From contig UGGS01000001.1 of NCBI GenBank assembly GCA_900450595.1, forward strand, positions 1,426,001 through 1,490,000: a stretch of 64,000 nt of DNA. Reading direction: 5' to 3'. Positions within the stretch are counted from its first letter, which is position 1. Every line of letters starts with the position of its first letter. Both the position numbers and the translations under genes were made by a program. Below, in pieces: positions 27,395-54,647 of the stretch. Source of the stretch: [Flavobacterium] thermophilum (GTDB lineage: Bacteria > Bacillota > Bacilli > Bacillales > Anoxybacillaceae). Under the pieces are notes generated by a model, which saw only the letters and a list, made by a program, of their open reading frames with translations, searched no databases and was not told where the DNA came from.

Positions 27395-28687
27395 ATGTTA
27401 ATTACTAAAAATGTTAAAGTTAAATGGTGTAAACAAAATAGAGAACATTATGAAAAATTGGGTTATAAATTTACAAAATATCTGGATTCATTTGTAGTGA
27501 AAATTGAAGATTTAACTTCACAAAGCCATGTTGAAGTAGAAATGATTTGCGATAACTGTAATAAAACAAAAATGACGCTTCCTTATAGAGAATATTTAAA
27601 AAGATATAAAGATAAAACTTATTTTTGTAACAATTGTAAAAAAGAAATTAAATTCAACGATTTAAAACAAAGATTTGAAAATAAAGGATATATTTTAGTT
27701 TCAGATATATCTGAATATGAAAATGTATTTTCTTATGTTAATTATATTTGTAAAAAGCATAAAGAAAAGGGTGTTATGAAAATTTTAGTTAATTCATTTA
27801 ATAATGGTTCAGGTTGTAAATATTGTGGAATTGAAAAGATGATAAATAAAAATAAAAAATCTTATGAAGAAGTAAAAGAGTTGTTTAAAAGTAAAAATCT
27901 AATTCTTTTAACAGATAATTATGAATCTGCTAATCAATTATTAAAATTTATTTGTGAAAATCATAAAGATAAGGGCGTACAAAAAATTAGATATAGAGCT
28001 GTTGCAGACGGACAAGGTTGTAAATATTGTGGCTATGAAAGAATATCAAATAAAATGAAACATAATTACGATTTTGTAAAATCAGAGTTTGAAAAAAGAA
28101 ATTATATTTTATTAGATAAGGAATATAGATGGACAAAAAATAAACTAAAATATATCTGTAAAAAACACCCAAATAAAATTCAAGAAATTGAATTTAGAGC
28201 GTTATATAATCAAAATCAAGGGTGTAAGTTCTGTGCTTTAGAAAAGGTTTCTGGCGAAAATAGCGTACATTGGAAAGGCGGTATTTCTTCATTATCCGCA
28301 TATTTAAGAACCTTTTTAAATGATTGGAAAATGGAATCTTTTAAAAAATGCGATTATAAATGTGTTATAACTGGCAAGAAATCTAATGGTGATTTTGAAG
28401 TTCATCATCTACTATCAGTTGATTTAATTATACAAAAAATACTTTCTGAAATAAACATGGAACTAAAACCAAAAATTTCAGATTACTCTAAAGATGAATT
28501 GAAAATATTGAAAAATTTATTTACAAAAGAAAACAATAAGTTGCATGGAGTAGTTTTAGACCCGAAAATTCACCGTTTATACCACAAAATTTATGGATAC
28601 GGTAACAATACACCTGAACAATTTGAAGAATTTAAAGAAAGATATAAAAATGGTGAATTTGACGATTTGATTGGAGAAGCGGTTTGA
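27395..28687 (+). CDS. Free-standing HNH homing-type endonuclease, 430 aa
   Basis: Four to five CxxC treble-clef-like repeats (ICDNCNK, FCNNCKK, GCKYCGIEK, GCKYCGYER, GCKFCALEK) form an extended DNA-binding array. A C-terminal HNH nuclease follows (CVITGKK ... EVHHLLS ... HRLYHKIYGYG). The N-terminal ~60 residues resemble the start of the endonuclease at 44326. It interrupts the head operon ~900 bp upstream of the intron-bearing terminase gene and could promote homing of that intron in trans. Insertion of such genes between structural genes is common in phages. Confidence 0.8.
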   Translation: MLITKNVKVKWCKQNREHYEKLGYKFTKYLDSFVVKIEDLTSQSHVEVEMICDNCNKTKMTLPYREYLKRYKDKTYFCNNCKKEIKFNDLKQRFENKGYILVSDISEYENVFSYVNYICKKHKEKGVMKILVNSFNNGSGCKYCGIEKMINKNKKSYEEVKELFKSKNLILLTDNYESANQLLKFICENHKDKGVQKIRYRAVADGQGCKYCGYERISNKMKHNYDFVKSEFEKRNYILLDKEYRWTKNKLKYICKKHPNKIQEIEFRALYNQNQGCKFCALEKVSGENSVHWKGGISSLSAYLRTFLNDWKMESFKKCDYKCVITGKKSNGDFEVHHLLSVDLIIQKILSEINMELKPKISDYSKDELKILKNLFTKENNKLHGVVLDPKIHRLYHKIYGYGNNTPEQFEEFKERYKNGEFDDLIGEAV

Positions 28688-28738: not shown

Positions 28739-29578
28739 ATGTCACGTAAGAAACAAGAAAAGAAAAGATGTTTAAAATGTGAAAGAGAATTAGCTCCACT
28801 TAATTTTTATAGCGGTAATGAAATTATATTTCCTGATGGAAAAATACATTTATGTAAGAATTGCTGCTCACAAATTATAGATCAACATGGTTTTGAAGGA
28901 TTCAAAATGATACTTCGCATTATTGACAAACCATTTTTACAAGATGTTTATAATGATGATCCAAAGGCATACATAAGACAAGTAAATAGTTTACCTCAAT
29001 ATCGTAATATGACTTATGATGATAGCGATTTTGTAGGTAATACAGTTAATAACACTATTGAAATTAACAAAGAAAAAGAAAAATTTTTAAATATTGATGA
29101 TGAGGTTCGGAAAAGATGGATAGGATTCACCTCTGAAGAAGATATTATGTTTTTAGAAAATTTTTATCAAGAATTAATTGCGACCTATGAATCTAAAACT
29201 CCTATTCAAAGAAATTTATATAAAAATATAGCTGAAACACAATTATTAGCTAATAAGGCAAGAGAGCAAGGAAAAATTAAAGAATATCAAGATTTATTAA
29301 AAACCATGAGTACGCTAATGACAGATGCTAAAGTTAAACCGTTACAAGAAACTGGTGCAGAAGATGGTGGTTTATCTACTTGGGGACAATGGGTTAAAAA
29401 GATTGAAGAAACTGAACCCATTCCTGAAGCCGAAGGAGAATTTAAAGATCCTGATGGTATTATGAAATATTTTCAGAAATTCTTTGTTAATCATTTTGCT
29501 AGAGTGTTTGGTTTGGAAGATAGAAACACCATCGAAAAAGATTTAGAAGATATGATGAAGGAAGATGGTGTTAGATAA
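28739..29578 (+). CDS. Probable terminase small subunit, 279 aa (YonG-like)
   Basis: An N-terminal zinc finger (CLKCERELAPLNFY ... LCKNCC) precedes a mostly helical, charged protein. It ends one base into the large terminase start (TAATG overlap). The position directly before the large subunit and the DNA-binding N-terminus suggest packaging-site recognition. It is larger than typical TerS. Annotation is by context. Confidence 0.55.
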   Translation: MSRKKQEKKRCLKCERELAPLNFYSGNEIIFPDGKIHLCKNCCSQIIDQHGFEGFKMILRIIDKPFLQDVYNDDPKAYIRQVNSLPQYRNMTYDDSDFVGNTVNNTIEINKEKEKFLNIDDEVRKRWIGFTSEEDIMFLENFYQELIATYESKTPIQRNLYKNIAETQLLANKAREQGKIKEYQDLLKTMSTLMTDAKVKPLQETGAEDGGLSTWGQWVKKIEETEPIPEAEGEFKDPDGIMKYFQKFFVNHFARVFGLEDRNTIEKDLEDMMKEDGVR

Positions 29579-31657
29579 TGGCAGGATATAAACATTTTCA
29601 AATAGATCGAAATAAATATAAAAATGGAATTATAGATATTTATAAAAAAGAAATTAATCCAAATAAAGTTGATGAAAATTTGAGTAAAAATGAACGTTTA
29701 AGAAATGGATTTAAAAAATGGAGTTCCTTTTTTCGAAGTAATCCTCATCGTTTTGCCGAATCATATTTAGGGCTTAAACTTAAAACTTACCAAAAAATTC
29801 TATTATATTTAATGTTTCATGTTTCGGCGTTCATGTATTTTGCTGCAAGGGGTCAGGGCAAGAGTTACATAATTTCCATTTTCTGTATAATACGTTGTAT
29901 ACTATATCCCAACACAAAAATTGTGATTGCCTCTGGTAATTGTATTGCCGTCTAATGTGGAAACACATTAGATCATCAGCGCGGAAGAAAACAGGAAGGC
30001 TGAGATGCTAACCTGAGTGGAAGGCTAAGAGTAACATCTTAGTCACACGCAACGCATAGACGGTGAAACTCCGATTAAGGAGAATATAATCCGTCCACGA
30101 GTCCGCGCCACCTAAGTCCTTTAAAGGATATGGTGAAAACGTATGCTGAACTAACGGGAAATGAACCGTTAGAAGTACAGGATAAAAAGCCTGTACGGTA
30201 ACATTTTGACAAAGGGGCAAGCCAAATTAATTATAACAGAAAAAATTCAAAAAGAATTAATGCAATATCCTAATATAGCAAGAGAAATAAAAGAAATTAA
30301 AACAGGTAGCAACCAAGTAGTTGTAGTATTTCAAAATGGAAGCACAATTGAAGCCGTAGTTTCGAACGATAATGCACGAGGATACCGATGTCAAATTTTA
30401 GTGCTTGACGAATTTCGTATGATTAAAGAAGACGTTTATGAAAAAGTTTTAAAACACTTCTTAAACGTACAACGTCAACCTCCTTACCTTAATAATCCTA
30501 AATATGCTCATTTAAAAGAAGAAAACAAACAGATATTTATTTCTAGTGCTTGGTTTAAAAATCATTGGAGCTATGAAAAATTTATTGATTATAGAAACGC
30601 CATGCTTAAAGGTAAAGATTATTTTGTTTGTGCTTTACCTTATACAGTATCTTTATATCATGGATTATTAAGTAGAAAATTTGTTGAAGATGAACGTTCT
30701 CATGATAATTTTGACCCTATCGCATGGCAAATGGAAATGGAATGTTTGTTCTTTGGGGAATCTGAAAAAGCATTTTTTAAATTTGAAGATTTACAAAAAA
30801 ACAGAAGTTTAATTAAACCATTTTACCCTTTAACAAATGTAGAATATTTAGAAAATAAAGGTAAACGTAAAAAATCAACTAAAATGGAAGGCGAAATTCG
30901 TCTAATTGGTGTTGACGTTGCTATTATGGGCGGTAATGATAACGACAACACCATTTTTACTTGTATGAGATTATTACCTAATGGTGATTCATATATTAAA
31001 CAAGTTCCTTATATTGAAAGTTTAAACGGTCAACACAGTGAGAAACAAGCCATAAGATTAAAACAATTATTTGAAGACTTTGAAGCAGATTATGTTGTAA
31101 TGGATACATCAGGTAACGGTATATCTTTATATGATGATTGCGGTCGTATCCTTTATGATGAGGAAAGAGATATTGAATATCCTGCTTGGTGTGCATTTAA
31201 TAACGATGAAATGAAAAATCGTGTTTTAGATAAAAATGCCTTGCCTGTCATCTATTCTTTAAAAGTCGTAAAACAAGAAGTAAACCATGATATTGCAATG
31301 TCTCTAAGAGCTGATTTAGAAAAAGGTCGGATTAAGTTACTCATTAATGAATTAGATGCAAAAGATTATTTAACTGAAAAACATGGATTTTTAAAGAAAA
31401 CTCCAGAAGAACAAGCTATTCTATTAAATCCTTATATTCAAACAACAATTTTAATTAATGAGATGATTAACCTTGAATATGAAATTAGAAATGGATTTGT
31501 AAAATTAAGTGAAGTTGGCAAAAATAGGAAAGACCGTTACAGTAGTTTGGCTTATTGCAATTACTATGCTCGTGAATTAGAAACGAAATTAAAAAAGAAA
31601 AAGAATGCAGTTGATCCAACTAAACTATTCCTATTCAAATCCCCTACCATAATGTAA
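29578..31657 (+). CDS. Terminase large subunit, 602 aa, split by a group I intron (join 29578..29937, 30209..31657)
   Basis: Genome-packaging motor. Exon 1 (120 aa) carries the ATPase P-loop AARGQGKS (~89-96) and ends IVIASG. Exon 2 resumes TKGQAKLIITEKI and carries Walker B ILVLDEFRM (~185), then an RNase H-like nuclease domain with IGVDVA and VVMDTSGNG acidic motifs. Joining at the predicted splice sites restores frame across the conserved ATPase sequence. Unspliced, translation would stop after 125 residues. Corresponds by order to SPbeta YonF. Confidence 0.88.
29938..30208 (+). ncRNA. Group I intron in the terminase gene, 271 nt, no ORF
   Basis: The 5' exon ends in U (GGU) and the intron ends in G. 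P1 is GGUAAU/AUUGCC with the U.G wobble exactly at the splice site. P7 is GACGG/CCGUC enclosing P8 (CUCC-GAUUA-GGAG), and AAUAUAAUCCGUCC matches the group I S-element pattern. Removal restores the conserved terminase reading frame. It shares most of its core with the first tape-measure intron (48031-48298). Confidence 0.9.
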
Positions 31658-44280: not shown

Positions 44281-44325
44281 AATACATAATGGGAGTTGAA
44301 ATAATGTGGATGGGAGTTGGATGAT

Positions 44326-45636
44326 GTGATTGTTCTTGATCAGAAAGTCAAGGTAAAATGGCATGGTAGTAATAAAAAACATTATGAATCTTTAGGGTAT
44401 AAATTTACAAAAATTGGAGATGAATTTGAAGTAGATATTAAACATTTATCTTTAGGTTCTAATGCTCTTGTTAAGTGTTATTGCGATTATTGTAATGAGC
44501 TTTTTAACAGAAAATATTGTCAGGTAAATGAATGTAAATTTCATTTTTGCAGTCAAAAATGTCAAGCATTATGGCAGTCTCAGTTTAGAGTCGGTGAAAA
44601 ATCTTCAAATTATAAAAAAGATATACCTATTGAAGATAGAACAATTACATGTCAATGGTGCAGAAGAAAATTTACTGTTATGCCAAGTGAAATAAATAAA
44701 ACTAAATTTTGTTCAAAAAAATGTAGGCAAGAATGGTATGCTAAAGTATGGTCGCAAAATCCTGAATGGAGAGAAAAAAGCAAACGCCGAGCTGTAAAAA
44801 TTCTTTCTGAAGGCAAAATAGAAAAAGTTAATACAGAATGTCAAATAATTGTAAATAATTTGTTAGATGAATTAAATATAAAGTATATTAATGAATATAA
44901 TTGTGAATATGTTACAATTGACAACTATTTACCAGATTATAATTTAATGATTGAAGTTATGGGTACTTATTGGCATGTAGACCCAAGATTCTATGAGAAG
45001 ATTTATTATCAAATGCAATTTGACAGAATTATTCATGATAAAAGAAAAAATAGTATCATAAAAAGTTTGTATAATATAGATATATTATATTTATGGGAAC
45101 ATGATATATTGAGCAATAAGGAACTATGTAAAGAGTTAATAAAAATGTATATTAATAAAAAAGGGGAATTAGATGAATACAATTCATTTAATTATGAAAT
45201 ATTGGATGGTTGCTTAATTTTAACTAATAAATATAAGCCTTTTATAGTTTATGATATTGAAGAATTGCATAATTTATTTGAGTTAAAATCGGGAGAAAAG
45301 AAAAGTTTAAAACAAGAAGACAAGTGGATCAAATTTAATTGTGATTGTTGTGGTAAAGAAACTGAACAATTAAAATCTAGATATAATAAAGCAAAACATC
45401 ATTTTTGTAGTCAAAAATGTAAAAAGATTTTTCAACAAAAAGGAAATAATAAAACTTTAGGTGTTGAAGTTAAATGTGACTATTGCGGAAAACCAAAAAT
45501 AGTGACTAATTATCAATATAATGATTATCTTGCTGGTAAAAAGAAAAATTTCTTTTGTAACTATGAATGTTTTAATAAATGGAAAAAGGTAAATTTTAAA
45601 GGTGAAAATAACCCGAATTATAAAGGTAGAAAATAA
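44326..45636 (+). CDS. Free-standing homing-type endonuclease, Vsr/EDxHD-like, 436 aa
   Basis: N-terminal and C-terminal treble-clef-like zinc fingers (YCDYCNELF, FCSQKCQALW, CQWCRRKF, FCSKKCRQEW, CDCCGKETEQ) flank a central nuclease. The central segment (NEYNCEYVTIDNYLPDYNLM, then IEVMGTYWHVD) resembles Vsr/PD-(D/E)XK-type homing enzymes. It ends in GENNPNYKGRK, a NUMOD3-like DNA-binding motif. The N-terminus resembles the HNH enzyme at 27395. It lies ~1.6 kb before the tape measure gene with its three introns. GTG start 9 nt after GGGAG. Confidence 0.7.
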   Translation: MIVLDQKVKVKWHGSNKKHYESLGYKFTKIGDEFEVDIKHLSLGSNALVKCYCDYCNELFNRKYCQVNECKFHFCSQKCQALWQSQFRVGEKSSNYKKDIPIEDRTITCQWCRRKFTVMPSEINKTKFCSKKCRQEWYAKVWSQNPEWREKSKRRAVKILSEGKIEKVNTECQIIVNNLLDELNIKYINEYNCEYVTIDNYLPDYNLMIEVMGTYWHVDPRFYEKIYYQMQFDRIIHDKRKNSIIKSLYNIDILYLWEHDILSNKELCKELIKMYINKKGELDEYNSFNYEILDGCLILTNKYKPFIVYDIEELHNLFELKSGEKKSLKQEDKWIKFNCDCCGKETEQLKSRYNKAKHHFCSQKCKKIFQQKGNNKTLGVEVKCDYCGKPKIVTNYQYNDYLAGKKKNFFCNYECFNKWKKVNFKGENNPNYKGRK

Positions 45637-46035: not shown

Positions 46036-46214
46036 GTGAGAAGGAGGAAAAGGAAATGTTAGCTACTTCTAAAAAATACAAAAGACCAAAAATTGCACAT
46101 AATAAATTTGCCAATATGAGTAAAAAAGACTGGAAGGAAGCTAATGAACAAAGTAAAAAAACACGTGGAGTTTCAAGACTTACTTATGAAGATATTTTTG
46201 GTTGTCGGGGGTAA
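46032..46214 (+). CDS. Small basic protein, 60 aa, upstream of a MazF/PemK-like gene
   Basis: Lys/Arg-rich (KKYKRPKIAHNKFANMSKKD). Two good starts exist: the first inside the sequestering hairpin, and a second nine codons later with its own AAGGAGGAAAAGGAA. The two forms may be made under different conditions. It is adjacent to the MazF/PemK-like gene and could be its antitoxin, although it does not look like known MazE proteins. Confidence 0.55.
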   Translation: MREKEEKEMLATSKKYKRPKIAHNKFANMSKKDWKEANEQSKKTRGVSRLTYEDIFGCRG

Positions 46215-46219
46215 TTTGT

Positions 46220-46816
46220 TTGGTGTCGTTTATCTCTAAAGAAAACTGGTTAAATATTTATAGAGGACATGAATATGAAGCTGCCCTACCCTATCCATCT
46301 GATACAAAAAGACCTCTTTCGTTTTTTATTCCAGATGATAATGATCCAGAAAGAGGTCGAATCGTAGAATCCAATGGGAATTTTAAACCGATTTATATTA
46401 ATGGTAAACCAATAGCTAAAGAACAGAAAATTATTATGACAGTTAAACCAAGAAAAGTTGTTGTATTAACTAATGATGAAATTAATCAAAATGAATATTT
46501 TGAATATATTTTAGTCGCCCCTATTAATACAATTAAACCAAATGAAAAACATAAAGAATGGTATCATAAATTAATAAATGATGAACATCCGATTTTTACA
46601 TATATACCCAAAGGTAAATTAGAAAGATATGTAGATTTAAGTCAGACAATGAGTATACACAAAAGTTTACTTTTACGTAAGAGTGACCATATCCCTGAAG
46701 ATCGCATGAAAGTAATTGATGATAACTTAGTACAATGTTTAGCACTAGGGATAATAAATGATGATGACATTGAAGAAACTATATATTTGGAAAATATAGA
46801 AAAACAAAATAAATAA
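46220..46816 (+). CDS. MazF/PemK-like protein, ~198 aa
   Basis: The core KPRKVVVLTNDEINQNEYFE, then YILVAPINTI, matches the RPVVVLS/TN...VAPI pattern of the MazF/PemK fold (mRNA interferase toxins of type II toxin-antitoxin modules). The protein is longer than MazF (~115 aa), with an N-terminal GHEYEAALPYP and a C-terminal helical extension. This suggests a specialised phage variant that may not be a classical toxin. TTG start 7 nt after GGGGGT; a GTG follows directly. Confidence 0.6.
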   Translation: MVSFISKENWLNIYRGHEYEAALPYPSDTKRPLSFFIPDDNDPERGRIVESNGNFKPIYINGKPIAKEQKIIMTVKPRKVVVLTNDEINQNEYFEYILVAPINTIKPNEKHKEWYHKLINDEHPIFTYIPKGKLERYVDLSQTMSIHKSLLLRKSDHIPEDRMKVIDDNLVQCLALGIINDDDIEETIYLENIEKQNK

Positions 46817-47209: not shown

Positions 47210-50200
47210 ATGCCTAATAATGATTCTCTAAAAATACTGATAACCGCACAATTAGATGAAAATGCTTCTAAAGATACTATTCAAAAACAACTTAATACAA
47301 TTCAAAGTAAATTAAATCTAACAATAGGAATAGATGCTCAACAAATTAGCCAAATTGCTAATCAAGTTAAACAGTTACAAGCACAATTTGAAAGACAATC
47401 AAAAGGAATAAAAATTATTGATGATGAGAATGTAATATCAAGTATAAATCAAATTAAAAAAGGAATGCCTGAAATATATACTTCTATAGATAAAGCACTT
47501 GAAAAATATAAACAGTTTGGTCAAGTTAAAATTGAAAAATCATTTGATCCTGTAACAAGAGAATTAAATGGCTTTACATTGCAATTGCAAAAGGCTCAAG
47601 GACTTATTGAACGCATTAAATTTGATTTAGTGCAATTAAAAATGCCAGATGGTACTCAAAATGTATTCCAAGTTACAAATAGAAAGATTACTGATGATAC
47701 AGAAAAAATTAGAGAAAAGCAATTACAACTAGAACAAAAAGTTGATACTCAAATACAAAAACAAAATGAAAAATTACAACAGCAATTAGAACTTTTTAAA
47801 CGTCAAGCAGAAATTAATGCAAAAAACCTACAAAGACGATATGGTGATGCAGTCGACACTAATGCATTGAATAATTATTTAGCAAGTGTAAGAAGTTTAA
47901 GTGCTTCTACTCCAGATGTAAAACGAAAAATGGATGAACTTAATATGACATTCAAAGAGATTTCTGCGAATGTCAAATCATCCTCTTCACATGTTTTAGA
48001 TTTCGGGGAAGCTTTAAAAACAGCAATGGTAAATTTTGCCGTCTAGTATAGAAATATACTAGATTATTATCGCGGTATCAAGCGGGGAGGCTGAGATGCT
48101 AACCCGAACCGAAGGCTAGGTTTAAAAGCCTAGTCAGGGGCAGAGCATACGGACTGAACCTGCGAAAGCAGAATATAATGTCCGCACGAGACCGCGACAC
48201 CCTAACACATTATGGTGAGGGTGAAAATGTATGCCGAGCTTGTGCGAATATGAAGCACAAGAACTATCGGATAAAAAGCCGATAGGGTAACATAACTGAA
48301 AATTCCCCGTCTGGCTAATTAGTGGTACGGCGATTGTGCAATCAATTAATTTCTTTCAAAAAGGTATTGAGTATGTGAATGAATTGAACAAGGCTCTCAC
48401 AGAAATAGCAATTGTTACGGGACAAACACAACAAGAAGTTGCAAAATTGGGTGAAGAATATAATAAACTTGCTTATCAAATGGGAGTCACTACTAACGAA
48501 GTAGCTCGTGCAAGTGTCGAATTCTTGCGTCAAGGTCTATCTCAAGAAGAAACAATGAAACGTGTTCAAGTTGCTACAGAATATGCAAAAATTTCATCAT
48601 TAGATTTTAATAAAGCAGCAGAAATTTTAACAGCTACAACAAATTCAATGAATGTAGATATTGAACGTGCAGCAGACGTGTTTTCAGCATTGGGAGATGC
48701 GACAGCAACTGGTGCAGATGAGATTGGGATAGCTTTTCAGCGCGTTGGCGGATCGGCATCAGCTCTGAATTTGGAATTCGAAAAGGTGGCTAGCTGGATT
48801 GCAGTACTATCGTCAAGAACTCGTGAGGGTGCTGCTACTGTCGGTAAATGAGTTGCCGCCTAGCATAGTAATATGCTAGTGAAAATCTCCTCTAATTGAC
48901 TTGGAAGCCCTAACAGATAATGCTGAGGGTGACAAGGCGCAAGCAGGCTGTGTGCCGTGCAGCGTGAACGACTGAACGAGGAGACTACCCTTTTGGGTAG
49001 AAGCGACAGTCTGAACTCTATGGAAACATAGAGAGTAAGGTTGAAGTGCCTTACCGCCATGTTAATACATGGTCAGTAGCCCTTTATTCGGGTGAAAGTA
49101 ACAGAATGAACAGTATCAAAAGCATTCTTGCGAGAATCCAAAACCTAAAAGAAACAGGTTTTGATGAGACAGATGGTACACAGATAAACGAGGTTGCAAA
49201 AGCATTAGCTACAGTTGGCATACAATTAGTAGATGCAAATGGTCAATTTAGAAATTTTGGTCAAGTAATGGATGAGATTGGAAATAAATGGAAGAACCTA
49301 GATAGCAGGACTAAGGCTTATCTCGCAACTACCATCGCCGGGACGTATCAGCAATCTCGATAAATAGATGTCGAGACTAAATCCCTTCTGATTAATTGGG
49401 GAAGTCCTAACGTAAAGCCGAGGATCACCCACAACAAGCAAGGTCTAATGACCTGTGCAGTTGCAACGACTGAGCGAAGGGACATCCTTATACAGAGGAT
49501 GAAGCGACAGTCTGAACTCTACAGAAATGTAGAGAGAGAAGGTCGAGTGTAAAGACACTCTTGGAAGTACCTTCTCCGCCATACCTATTATCAATAGGTA
49601 TGGTCAGTAGCCATTGACTGTTTTTCAATGGTGAAAGTAACAGTATGTTCTAAACCTTATGGAAGGTTATGCTGATACGATTCCACTATACGAACAAGCT
49701 TTACAATCGGCTGGCACAACACAACAAAAATTTAATACATATTTAGAATCAAATGAAGCAGCGTTAAATAGACTTAAAGCTTCGTGGGAAGGTTTATGGC
49801 AATCAAGTTTTGATTCTGAAGCAATTAGAGCAGGAATTAATATTTTAGATGGATTTGTAAAAGTTTTAAAAGCAGTAATTGACAATATCGGACTATTCCC
49901 TACCGTTATTGGTATTGCTACAGCTTCGTATTTGGCTCTTAATAATACAACCAGACAATCAATAATGCAACAAGGTTTGCTGTCTGCAAGCTTAGTAAAA
50001 GCTGGAGACTCAATGAAAATTGCTTCAGGTGCAGCTAGAGCATATCAAATATCATTATATAATCTTACTTTAGCTGCCAGAGGTGCTGGCGCAGCTTTAA
50101 CAGTTGCAGGAACAGCTATAAGAAGTATTGGCACTTTCTTAGGAACTATTGCTCTCCCTACCGCCGCATTCATGGCTCTTGGCTGGGCAATCGGTAAAGT

Positions 50201-53200
50201 TACAGAGAAAATTATCGAATATAAAGAACACCAAAAACAAATCAAACAAGAAGCCCAACAACTCGCCAACACTTACGCAACAAATAAAGAAAAAATCCAA
50301 AGCCTTGCTGACCAATATGAACGTTTATCTAATGAAGTTCAAAAAGGTTTACGTCCTAAAGACGATGAAGAATATTTAAAAGTACAACAAGAACTTTATA
50401 ATTTGATCCCGACAGTCGCGTCATACGTTGATCAGAAGGGTCAAGCGCATTTACGCAGTGCAGAGGCTGTTCGCAAAGAGATTGACAGCATTAAGGAGTT
50501 ATCTAAACTTGAAAGTAATAAATTCATTGACAATTTTTCTAACAATATTGACAAAATAAAAAATAAAATTGATAACCTACAAAATCAAATTAACAACATT
50601 AAAAACCCTGTTTTCGATGGCGGATTTACTATTCCTAATTACCAACCAACTTCAGAAGAACAAATTGAAATTGCCATTAAGCAACGTGAAATTAACGCTG
50701 CTATTGAACAAGCAATCGGTTTATATAAACAATATGCTGATGCTTATGCGGATACTCTTGGTGTTAAAAAACAACTAAATGAAGAAGATAAAAAATATAT
50801 AGAAACTATCATTGAAGAAAATCGCGCAAAATTATTAACGGCAAAAGGTCAAGAAGAAGTAACTAAAAAGATTAAAGATTATATTGGCGAAGTTGGCAAC
50901 GCACGTAAAGCAGTTGGTGATTTATTTACAGGCGAAGAAATTAGAAACTTTACAGATAAACAAAAAGGTGTCATTGAATCTATTTCCAAATCTTTAAAAA
51001 ACAGTTATACTGATTGGGAGCAATATAAAAAAGTATTGGAGCAAGTAGGATTTAGTTCTGATCAAGTTGATAAAATTATTAACCGTCTAACAGGAACTAC
51101 AAATCAACAAACAAACGCCAATATAAAAGCTGCCAATTCATTTGAAATATTAGCAGGTAAAATTGATGAAAGTGGCAAAGCAACAGAACGTAAATTATCT
51201 GTATCTGAAAAACTGTTAGGTATTTCTAATTCTGAAATTGATGCGGCTTTTCAAGCTATCTCTACTTATCAACTTCTAAGCAATCAAGAAAATCTCAACA
51301 CCCAACAATCCCTTATGCTTGCAGACGCTAAAGAATATCTTGCTAACCTCTATCCTCACCTAGTCGAAGGTACAGAATTAAACATCGCAGCAATGAGAAG
51401 AGAAGCAGAACAAAATCAAATCCTACTCAAAGCTATTGATGCACTCAAAGATGGTCATTTAACAGCAGAGCAACAAATGACATTAGCAACAGCTCTCAAT
51501 GCAAAATCTCGTTTACAAATTCTCATGCAACAAGCAGCAGTATATGAACAAGCAGCGCAAAATTTTGCAAAAATGTCTGACGGTACAGACGAAAATGCAA
51601 TTCAGGCTGAAAAATTCTATCGCAGAGCACAACAAAGTCAAGCAAGTTTAAAACAAGAAATTGAAGCCATCATGCCTGACATGGATAAATGGATTCAACA
51701 ATTAGCTGATGCAACAAATTATCAAGGACAAATATATCAAGCAGATGAAGAAGCAAAGAAAAAGAATAAAAAATCTACTGAAGAGTCTATTTATGTCACA
51801 GATAAATATAAACAAGCACTATCTAAACTTAATGCTGAAATTCAGAAATTGCAAACACTTCAATCAAAATACCCTAAACAATCAGAAAGTTATCGAAATG
51901 CTTTAAAACAAGAAATTACCCTTTTACAACAAAAGAAACAATTAATGCAAGAGCAAGCGAAATCGCTTGAACAACAAATTAAGTCAGGTAAAATACAGCA
52001 AACAGGGATAATAAGTACAAAATCAACTAGTGTCAGTGGAAATAGTAAAGAAGCTATTATTTGGAACTTTTTTAAATCAAAAGGATTTTCTGATAGTGTT
52101 GTAGCTGGAATCCTCGGAAATCTAAAACATGAATCCGGATTAAGTACCACAATTGTTAATCCTACAAGTGGTGCAACAGGATTGGCACAATGGCTCGGTA
52201 GTCGTTTAACAGGTCTTAAAAATTATGCTGCTTCATTGGGAAAAAGCTGGACTGATTTAAATGTACAACTTGATTACATGTGGAAAGAATTAAATTCCAC
52301 AGACAAGAAAACGTTAAATTGGTTATTAAGCAATCAAGATGCAATTCCTTCCACAGTAGCAACCATGTTTGAAAAATTATATGATCGCGCTGGCGGTGCT
52401 GGTTTAAGTAGTCGTATTTCCTACGCTAATCAATATTATCAAAAATTTGCAAACGGCAATGTATCTGGTGATGTATCTAAACAAATTGCAGAACAACAAC
52501 AATCTATTGACCAAGCCAAAGAAGATTTAAATAGTTTGAAAGCAGAAATTAGCGATTTAGATGCTCAAATTGCTGAACGATATATGGAAATCCATCGTTC
52601 CAAAATTGCTGAATTTGACTTAGCGCGTGAAAGAATACGTAATCATCAAGAATTGTATGAATTAGAAAAACAATCTCTTGATGAAAATTCTAAAGCATAT
52701 CGTCAACGCATTCAAAATCAAATTATTTTAGAACAAAAAACAAATAAGGCATTACAAACAGAGATTAAGTGGGCAGAAAATCAGATTAAAAATGATAAGA
52801 AGATTAGTGCATCTCATAAGGAAGAACTTCGTCAGTTTATTGCTGAACGTCAAAAAATGTTGAAAGAATCTAATCAGAAAATTGTTGAATGGCAAGAAGA
52901 AATCATAATAAGCTCTCTTCATGAGATGTATGAGCAAATAGATAAAGCATTTAATGCAATGGAAGATCGTGTAAGTCGTCTTCAACATCAGTTAAAAATG
53001 TTGGGTGATGTAGAATTTCATCCTTTTAAAATTGATATTATGACCGATGAAATTGATGCATTAATCCAAGAACGTGAACAAACACGAAAAGATTTAAATA
53101 GATTAAAACAAGAACAAAAGAAACTAAAGAAAGATAGTAAACCTTATAAAGAAAATTTAGCAAAAATTGCAGAATTAGAAAAAAGATTAATGACCGTTGA

Positions 53201-54647
53201 TGAAAATATAGTCCAAGCTGACGCAGACTTAAAAGATTATTATACTAGAGTTGCAGAACAAGTAATCGAAGCACAAAAAAAATATTATGAAGAAAAGAAA
53301 CAAGCTGCTTTAAGTTCCCTTGATGCAGAGAGACAAGCAATTGAATCAACTTACGAAGCTCAAATGAAAGCAATTGAAGAAGCTCATGACGCTAAAATGA
53401 AAGCAATTGATGAAGAACTTAGAGCATTAGAAAAATTAAAAGATGAAGAAGATTATAATAAGCAATTAGATAAGTTAAACAAAGAAAGACAAGAGATTTT
53501 AAATAAAATTAATAAATTGGCACTAGATGATAGTCAAGAAGCGAATGCAAAACGTATAGAATTGCAAAAACAATTAGCTGAAAAAGAAGATGAAATTAAT
53601 GAGTTTAAACATAACCGAGAATATGAATTAAGACGACAAAATCTTGAAGATTTAAGAGAAAAGCTAAATGAAGAATACGAAAACGAAAGAGAAACACGAG
53701 AAAAGTCTTATGAAGACCTTACAGAAAATTTGGATAAGAGAAGAGAAGAAATCGAAAAGTATTACGATGACATAATTAATGATACTCGAAGATGGGATAA
53801 TGTTACTCAGCAAATATTGAGTGGGCAATTTAATAATTTACGCACAGAGTTAAACAATATTCAAGTTGATATAGATAAAACAATGAATTCAGCAAGTAGT
53901 TATGTTTATGAATTAGTTAAAGCGTTAGAAGATGCTCAAAAAGCAATGGCTTCTTTAGGAAATGGTACTACAACCAATTACAATGAAACACATAAACAAA
54001 TTAATGAAACATTAGATGATCCTGTTTATTGGGACGGTGCAGAACTAAAAGACGGACAAATTGGTAGAATTAAAATTCTTAAACCAATCAATTTGTGGAA
54101 ACGTGATGCACAAGGAAAATTACAATTTGTCCGTGTTTTAAAACCGGGAGAAGTATTTCGAGTATATGGATATGATGAAAAATACGGTGGTCAATACAAT
54201 GTAGGTTCAGGATATTGGATTACCAATATGAAGGGATATGTTCAATACGAAACACCATCTAAAGAAAAATTACGTGAAGCACAAATGTTTGATACAGGTG
54301 GATACACGGGTGAAGATGAAGGATTAGCTTATTTACATAAAAAAGAAATAGTATTAAATGAAACAGACACTAAAAATTTCTTAGATACAGTCAAAGAATT
54401 GCGTTCATTTGACTCAATGCAAATTTTAGACTCACTCAAAGCAGCAACAATGAGTTTTATGCGTATTCCAAAAATACAATTACCTAATCTTTCCCCTGCT
54501 CTTGCAGGCGGTGGAACAATTCAAATTGATAATTTAATTCACATTGATAAAGTGGAAAAAGATGCAAATATCAATATTGAAAAATTAGCAGACCAAGCAA
54601 TTGATCGTTTAATAACTAAATTAAAACCGTATGGATTTTTTAAATAA
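47210..54647 (+). CDS. Tail tape measure protein, 2,206 aa, with three group I introns (join 47210..48030, 48299..48845, 49109..49361, 49648..54647)
   Basis: Sets tail length and helps DNA delivery (SPbeta YomI-like). The joined exons total 6,621 nt, exactly 2,207 codons. The conserved tape-measure core lies across all four exons (residues ~270-600; FPVWLISGTAIVQSINFFQK, VGNSIKSILARIQNL and GTYQQSRFLNLMEGY are restored at the junctions). A phage tail lysozyme domain (KHESGLSTTIVNPTSGATG) lies near residues 1345-1475. Long charged coiled coils follow, and the C-terminus carries a conserved LHKKEIVLNETDT-like motif. Unspliced, translation would end at residue 278. GATGGTGGTGAT precedes the ATG. 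Confidence 0.9.
48031..48298 (+). ncRNA. Group I intron 1 of the tape measure gene, 268 nt, no ORF
   Basis: P1 pairs exon GGU with intron GCC across AAAUUUU, with U.G at the splice site. P7 is CGGAC/GUCCG enclosing P8 (CUGC-GAAA-GCAG). The intron ends in G. The core differs from that of the terminase intron by compensatory changes in P7 and P8, evidence that these helices are real. The exons rejoin within a Val codon to give MVKFPVWLISG. Confidence 0.9.
48846..49108 (+). ncRNA. Group I intron 2 of the tape measure gene, 263 nt, no ORF
   Basis: P1 is GGUAA/UUGCC with U.G at the splice site. UAAUUGACUUGGAAGCCC is P/Q-like. P7 is GACU/AGUC enclosing P8 (CUACCC/GGGUAG). Ends in G. It shares the GACAGTCTGAACTC and GAAAGTAACAG blocks with intron 3 but not with intron 1. 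Splicing joins ATVG to NSIKSILAR in frame. Confidence 0.9.
49362..49647 (+). ncRNA. Group I intron 3 of the tape measure gene, 286 nt, no ORF
   Basis: A perfect 7-bp P1, UCUCGAU/GUCGAGA, with U.G at the splice site. P7 is GACU/AGUC enclosing P8 (CAUCC/GGAUG). Ends in G. P8 differs from intron 2 by covariation. Exons rejoin within a Phe codon to restore QQSRFLNLMEGY. Confidence 0.9.

Follow-up and report, generated by a model that had tools for sequence, protein, structure and literature searches.

Three predicted group I introns in the tape measure gene of a prophage in [Flavobacterium] thermophilum

Introduction

Within a stretch of 64,000 nucleotides (nt) of [Flavobacterium] thermophilum (assembly GCA_900450595.1, contig UGGS01000001.1, positions 1,426,001-1,490,000), referred to here as the window and numbered from its first letter, lies a prophage gene for tail length, that of the tape measure protein (TMP; 47210-54647). 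This gene is very probably interrupted by three group I introns, none of which holds an open reading frame (ORF), and these would be spliced out to leave one in-frame messenger RNA (mRNA). An earlier note on the same DNA had placed three such introns in the conserved core of the gene, and this claim is borne out by alignment to intron-free TMPs and by covariation within the intron cores: the intron lengths that it gave (268, 263, and 286 nt), its two internal exons (547 and 253 nt), and its exon total of 2,207 codons, which counts the stop, are all exact, and the alignment to intron-free TMPs that it had proposed as a check shows the joined sequence in homologues at all three junctions. What the note had not seen is that the first intron belongs to another class than the second and third, and that a relative of the first splits the terminase gene.

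The tape measure gene and its junctions

The gene was delimited by means of intron-free homologues, namely the TMP of Psychrobacillus phage Perkons (MT325768) and those of four IMG/VR loci (L003, L005, L006, and L009), and it resolves into the following parts:

47210-48030, + strand: TMP exon 1, 821 nt (ORF, alignment to the Perkons TMP, and PHROG tape measure match)
48031-48298, + strand: intron 1, 268 nt, predicted group I class 1 (P7.1-type helix between P7 and P3'), no ORF (joined frame, structure, and covariation)
48299-48845, + strand: TMP exon 2, 547 nt (70% identical to the Perkons TMP; PF10145)
48846-49108, + strand: intron 2, 263 nt, predicted group I class 2, no ORF (joined frame, RF00028 at 40.3 bits, below cut-off, and covariation)
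49109-49361, + strand: TMP exon 3, 253 nt (aligned stretch 58% identical to the Perkons TMP)
49362-49647, + strand: intron 3, 286 nt, predicted group I class 2, no ORF (joined frame, RF00028 at 34.6 bits, below cut-off, and class 2 alignment)
49648-54647, + strand: TMP exon 4, 5000 nt (tail lysozyme domain PF18013)

Together the four exons amount to 6,621 nt, which read in frame to a single terminal stop and encode a product of 2,206 residues. At the joins the residues are KTAM^VKFPVW (intron 1), ATVG^NSIKSIL (intron 2), and TYQQSR^FLNLMEG (intron 3), and at the matching places the intron-free Perkons TMP has STAAIKFPIW, STIGQSIKS, and YQQSRFLNLMEG; all three junctions restore motifs that are conserved in the TMP alignment. 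The introns lie close together, with 1,617 nt from the start of the first to the end of the last, and their GC content is 43-46% as against 33% in the exons. Folded with short 5' flanks, introns 1-3 give z-scores of -7.4, -6.0, and -7.7.

Splice sites and ribozyme cores

All three introns, as well as the terminase intron described below, are preceded by U and have G as their last base, and their guides form a P1 hairpin with the 5' exon that places a U.G pair at the splice site. That the TMP introns lack ORFs, as the earlier note had stated, holds in all six frames, with stop-free stretches of at most 60-70 codons, and no homing-endonuclease ORF was found inside any of the four introns, in which the longest stop-free stretch is of that same length.

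Relatives of intron 1 were gathered from phage records and by scanning viral contigs for the core pattern (115 stretches), and a looser class 1 expression run over the collected loci gave 139 matches, 113 of them distinct and 107 with a P7'-like string. After both window introns of this class had been added and near-duplicates dropped, the set held 91 sequences, of which 62 were aligned and 29, mostly longer or partial, were omitted. The class 1 structure was drawn from intron 1 and then tested on this alignment: 91.0% of core cells are paired, compared with 68.8% in shuffled alignments and 33-38% when the strands are slid, the covariation score is 0.602 as against 0.182 shuffled, and two-sided changes occur in 606 cells as against 174. 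Helices P3, P4, P6, P7.1, and P8 covary, and in P7.1, which is present in intron 1 and the terminase intron, 99.7% of cells are paired, with two-sided changes in all five pairs. For class 2, a core scan yielded at least 120 stretches and 96 non-redundant cores, and in the 51 with a contiguous 5' half that were aligned, 87.4% of cells are paired (68.4% shuffled, 36-45% slid), with a covariation score of 0.447 as against 0.151 shuffled. Both classes thus present the group I core, comprising P3-P8, P4-P6, P7, and the P3/P7 pseudoknot, and the controls passed.

Group I subgroup IA is marked by an additional helix, P7.1, which stands between P7 and the 3' strand of P3, and class 1 shows it. No helix between P7 and P3' was found in the class 2 alignment, which covers introns 2 and 3 and runs from P7 through three or four bases directly into P3', so that the IA feature is absent there.

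Several observations weigh against the assignment to group I. In class 1, 95% of P7 cells are paired but P7 is mostly fixed, with a two-sided change in one of six pairs, partly because the search pattern fixed one strand; in class 2 the six P7 pairs are invariant because the search pattern fixed P7; and P7 is therefore supported by pairing more than by covariation. The class 2 alignment also has its inner P8 helix misaligned (29% paired) and P9 at 74% paired, and its pair-type count was reached by 3 of 500 shuffles. The Rfam model RF00028, whose curated cut-off is 50 bits, scores introns 2 and 3 below that value, as listed above, and reported neither intron 1 (at E up to 1) nor the terminase intron. 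At the cut-off, however, it reported the target core in none of 20 class 1 loci (L016, L018, L019, and L020 included), where its one match, in L125, lay away from the target core, and in none of 20 class 2 loci, all loci being picked mainly for shortness; its silence thus says more about how far the model reaches than about what defines a group I intron, and the Rfam group I model is called incomplete in passages of PMC11878797. The idea that intron 1 might be another kind of RNA, which arose from the silence of Rfam, was dropped after the 62 related cores had shown P3, P4, P6, P7, P7.1, and P8.

Lastly, what the sequence shows are the intron boundaries, the reading frame, the covariation of the cores, and other introns at the same sites, and from these we infer the occurrence of splicing, its autocatalysis, and the route of intron movement. 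As all this is evidence from DNA, one might instead read the gene as a pseudogene that has decayed and split, its inserts being structured by chance and not introns, a reading which we hold to be extremely improbable given the exact in-frame joins at conserved motifs, the covarying group I cores, and the occupation of the same sites in unrelated contigs.

Two loci that turned up among the class 1 relatives may be recorded here: in Bacillus phage AR9 (L020) the gyrase A gene is annotated in three pieces, with two class 1-like introns, and phage phiR1-37 (L018) has a similar core beside a gyrase gene.

Predicted course of splicing

In the late transcript, each intron would fold into its ribozyme core and bind guanosine; cleavage would take place after the U of the P1 U.G pair, and the exons would be joined after the last G of the intron, the expected result being a single in-frame mRNA for the TMP. 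In-frame stops begin at 48044 in intron 1, at 48849 in intron 2, at 49361 for intron 3 (straddling its 5' splice site), and at 29953 in the terminase intron, and by their position near the 5' splice sites they may keep ribosomes out of the ribozyme core. It can fairly be inferred, as the earlier note had it, that loss of splicing at any one of the TMP introns would abolish tails.

Introns 1 and 2 might also splice partly across each other, and the skipping of exons would then give a mixed RNA population. Each guide pairs about equally well with the 5' exon of the other intron (-4.4 to -5.6 kcal/mol), and passages of PMC11878797 offer precedents in Twort orf142 and phage SIOphi. The guide of intron 3, however, strongly prefers its own exon (-8.8 vs -3.3 or weaker), and the loss of exon 2 (547 nt), exon 3 (253 nt), or both (800 nt) breaks the frame, so that skipped RNAs would be waste; we consider such skipping somewhat unlikely and favour the removal of three separate introns to give one mRNA.

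The terminase intron and the free-standing endonuclease-like genes

The large terminase gene of the window is divided by a fourth intron:

29578-29937, + strand: large terminase exon 1 (PHROG 15503 profile positions 9-123)
29938-30208, + strand: fourth intron, 271 nt, predicted group I class 1, no ORF (joined frame and class 1 alignment)
30209-31657, + strand: large terminase exon 2 (PHROG 15503 profile positions 124-243; terminase-type PHROG matches)

Its exons join in frame as IVIASG^TKGQAK, and one PHROG profile runs on across both. At the level of DNA the terminase intron is the sole relative of intron 1 in the genome (72.6% identical), and when searched with the core patterns the genome yields two class 1 and two class 2 cores.

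Upstream of each of the split genes stands a free-standing, endonuclease-like ORF:

27395-28687, + strand: endonuclease-like ORF upstream of the terminase (PHROG endonuclease/homing endonuclease matches)
44317-45636, + strand: endonuclease-like ORF upstream of the TMP (PHROG homing/HNH endonuclease matches)

The two have an N-terminal stretch in common (42% over 79 amino acids), and that of the ORF at 44317-45636 is also found in an endonuclease lying inside the AG^TYQQ intron of a related TMP locus, L007 (36% over 64 amino acids). Both ORFs are possible helpers of intron mobility in trans, and collaborative homing by a neighbouring endonuclease is discussed for the terminase of Vibrio phage ICP1 in passages of PMC10448857. 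Between the second ORF and the TMP gene, at 46202-46816, the window encodes a PemK-like protein, and PemK-like genes occupy the same place in Geobacillus virus E3. A single CRISPR-DR2 match lies on the minus strand at 2442-2471.

Relatives of the tape measure gene

As to bacterial relatives, the genus (14 genomes) has one other TMP match, a distant one at 24% identity, in the family (41 genomes) the protein occurs only in this genome at E 1e-15, and a contig scan of genomes gave one distant TMP, in Cohnella terricola. A profile built from the TMP relatives recognises YomI of SPbeta, which is annotated as one uninterrupted gene. SPbeta was not among the matches when phage records were searched with exon 2, so that the gene can be called SPbeta-like in a loose sense only; of the isolates found, Perkons is the closest.

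Introns in the same region of the gene recur among related loci. When TMP loci were fetched by alignment to the TMP gene, 66 of 70 were uninterrupted in the region, whereas L041, L044, and L045 show introns as gaps and the TMP of L043 breaks off at the same place as that of L041, near the end of the L043 contig. Of 24 loci obtained with the TMP of L307 as query, 14 are interrupted in the same region by one or more introns, a share that is biased because the query itself came from an intron-bearing locus, and two of seven TMP loci found in IMG/VR (L007 and L008) have two introns each. In all, 27 distinct loci outside this genome have at least one gap in the TMP, though many of these loci had been collected because they matched intron patterns. 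By the same rules as those applied to the window, in-frame joins can be made across 13 introns of eight related TMP loci. They include three in L333, two of which flank an exon of 50 nt (L333:5421-5470), and a 304-nt intron in Geobacillus virus E3 (L354, KP144388), where the two parts are annotated as separate N- and C-terminal genes; L155 likewise has three introns, two of them joined and the middle one seen by profile gap only, as the anchors gave no open frame.

The many uninterrupted genes bear on the idea that splicing serves as a regulated gate, in which any retained intron would truncate the TMP (and the terminase) and so time the tail and packaging functions. In its favour, the two interrupted genes both serve assembly, every intron introduces an in-frame stop, and introns as switches sensitive to guanosine triphosphate (GTP) are discussed in passages of PMC11878797. 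The TMPs of Perkons, SPBc2, and vB_BcoS-136, however, are annotated as single uninterrupted genes, and these, along with the 66 uninterrupted loci, imply that a gate would be dispensable; we regard it as unlikely, and prefer to see the introns as inserts that would simply be spliced out.

Insertion sites and intron ancestry

Each of the three sites in the window gene is also occupied elsewhere: site 1 (AMV^KFP; intron 1) in L155, site 2 (G^NS; intron 2) in L155 and L333 and, by profile position, in further loci, and site 3 (SR^F; intron 3) in L330, L333, and L347. Other joined TMP sites are YLG^DATA (L008), ATG^ADE (L007), RVG^GTAG (L044), AG^TYQQ (L007 and L008), LLG^YTT (L333), and EVD^NNF (Geobacillus virus E3). 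By eye, and from long common stretches, a third intron type is seen at several TMP positions in L330, L333, L347, L350, L351, L354, and L155.

The occupants of one site need not be close kin. Intron 1 is about 60% identical to the intron at the same site in L155, at a tree distance of 1.15, and its nearest relatives outside the genome are in L188 and then in L180, L183, L186, and L135; the introns of the latter four precede an exon that by eye resembles a large terminase. Intron 3 gave no blastn match at E 1e-3 to the same-site introns of L330, L333, and L347 (46-57% in forced alignment), and it groups with the introns of L044 and L283 (ultrafast bootstrap 100). The L044 intron lies after AG, 19 nt upstream, and is 82% identical to intron 3 over 169 nt (208 nt of the L044 intron, with its 3' end missing). 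For intron 2, on the other hand, the identity to introns at the same site is 77% (L213) and 76% (L333), and in the tree it falls together with two TMP introns from that site (ultrafast bootstrap 96).

A duplication within the TMP gene could be read from introns 2 and 3, which share a 49-nt stretch at 80% identity and are 67% identical overall. Against this, each groups with introns of other phages, as just described, the local identity to those outside introns is higher (76-77% for intron 2, 82% for intron 3), and a quick tree of shorter sequences also keeps introns 2 and 3 apart; we judge such a duplication very improbable, and separate arrivals are the preferred account.

That quick tree kept 70 cores, 13 of them labelled TMP, with 52 skipped; it requires at least five label changes and had no shuffled control. 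In it, introns of other genes stand nearest to intron 2. L283, close to intron 3, reads by eye as a TMP, and L291, closest to intron 3 in the quick tree, does not. A TMP-specific intron lineage, suggested by a first tree, was dropped, since the wider quick tree and the host genes of near relatives place introns of other genes close by.

One and the same position can thus be occupied by different introns, and introns of one lineage are found at several positions. Most likely the introns came separately from a common phage intron pool, and they may have moved by means of endonucleases, perhaps free-standing and acting in trans, or by reverse splicing. It seems to us evenly balanced whether the core of the TMP gene in these phages acts as a hotspot that introns enter again and again, at about nine positions by profile and with unrelated introns entering at the identical nucleotide. 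On that reading the site, and not intron ancestry, would set the location, a pattern to be expected, if the reading is true, where a site-specific and perhaps free-standing endonuclease or conserved exon sequence guides entry.

Comparison with known systems

The earlier note had called three introns in one phage tail gene unusual. The observation itself holds, but the word has to be toned down because the TMP of ICP1 has four exons and three introns, and because 14 of the 24 loci mentioned above are interrupted in the same region. In ICP1, passages of PMC10448857 describe this TMP and a split terminase with evidence from RNA sequencing and reverse-transcription PCR, so that the architecture is already described and the window holds a further example, not new in kind. 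According to the same passages, the two also agree in that the terminase is split by one intron and has an endonuclease gene beside it and not inside the intron, and they differ in that the middle TMP intron of ICP1 usually holds an endonuclease gene, whereas none does in the window. The ICP1 TMP gave no match to the TMP profile, and neither core pattern was found in its TMP stretch, for which reason insertion sites and intron classes are not to be equated between the two.

In passages of PMC11878797, the tail tube gene orf142 of phage Twort is a structural gene that, like the window TMP, carries three group I introns, but it is another gene and exon skipping is reported for it. In the Bastillevirinae described there, as in the window, a single gene, terminase included, may hold two or three group I introns, but the genes are those of polymerase, terminase, thymidylate synthase, and ribonucleotide reductase, and the mean intron length is 802 bases; no TMP is among the intron-bearing genes that those passages name. 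Geobacillus virus E3 resembles the window in that its TMP is interrupted in the same region, and differs in having a single intron at a different site (EVD^NNF).

Among the titles and abstract openings listed from the open-licence literature, we found no report of introns in TMP genes from this group of phages; nor did we find in print that different introns have repeatedly entered the same TMP sites, and this repeated entry is the part worth following. The observations indicate that genes split in this way readily escape notice or enter annotations in pieces, because the Rfam group I model does not reach its cut-off on phage introns of these classes. The related TMPs, in which one site may hold different introns and may be empty in a close relative, provide material for testing how phage introns choose and re-enter their sites, and the window supplies, beside that of ICP1, a second type of TMP in which three introns split one tail gene.
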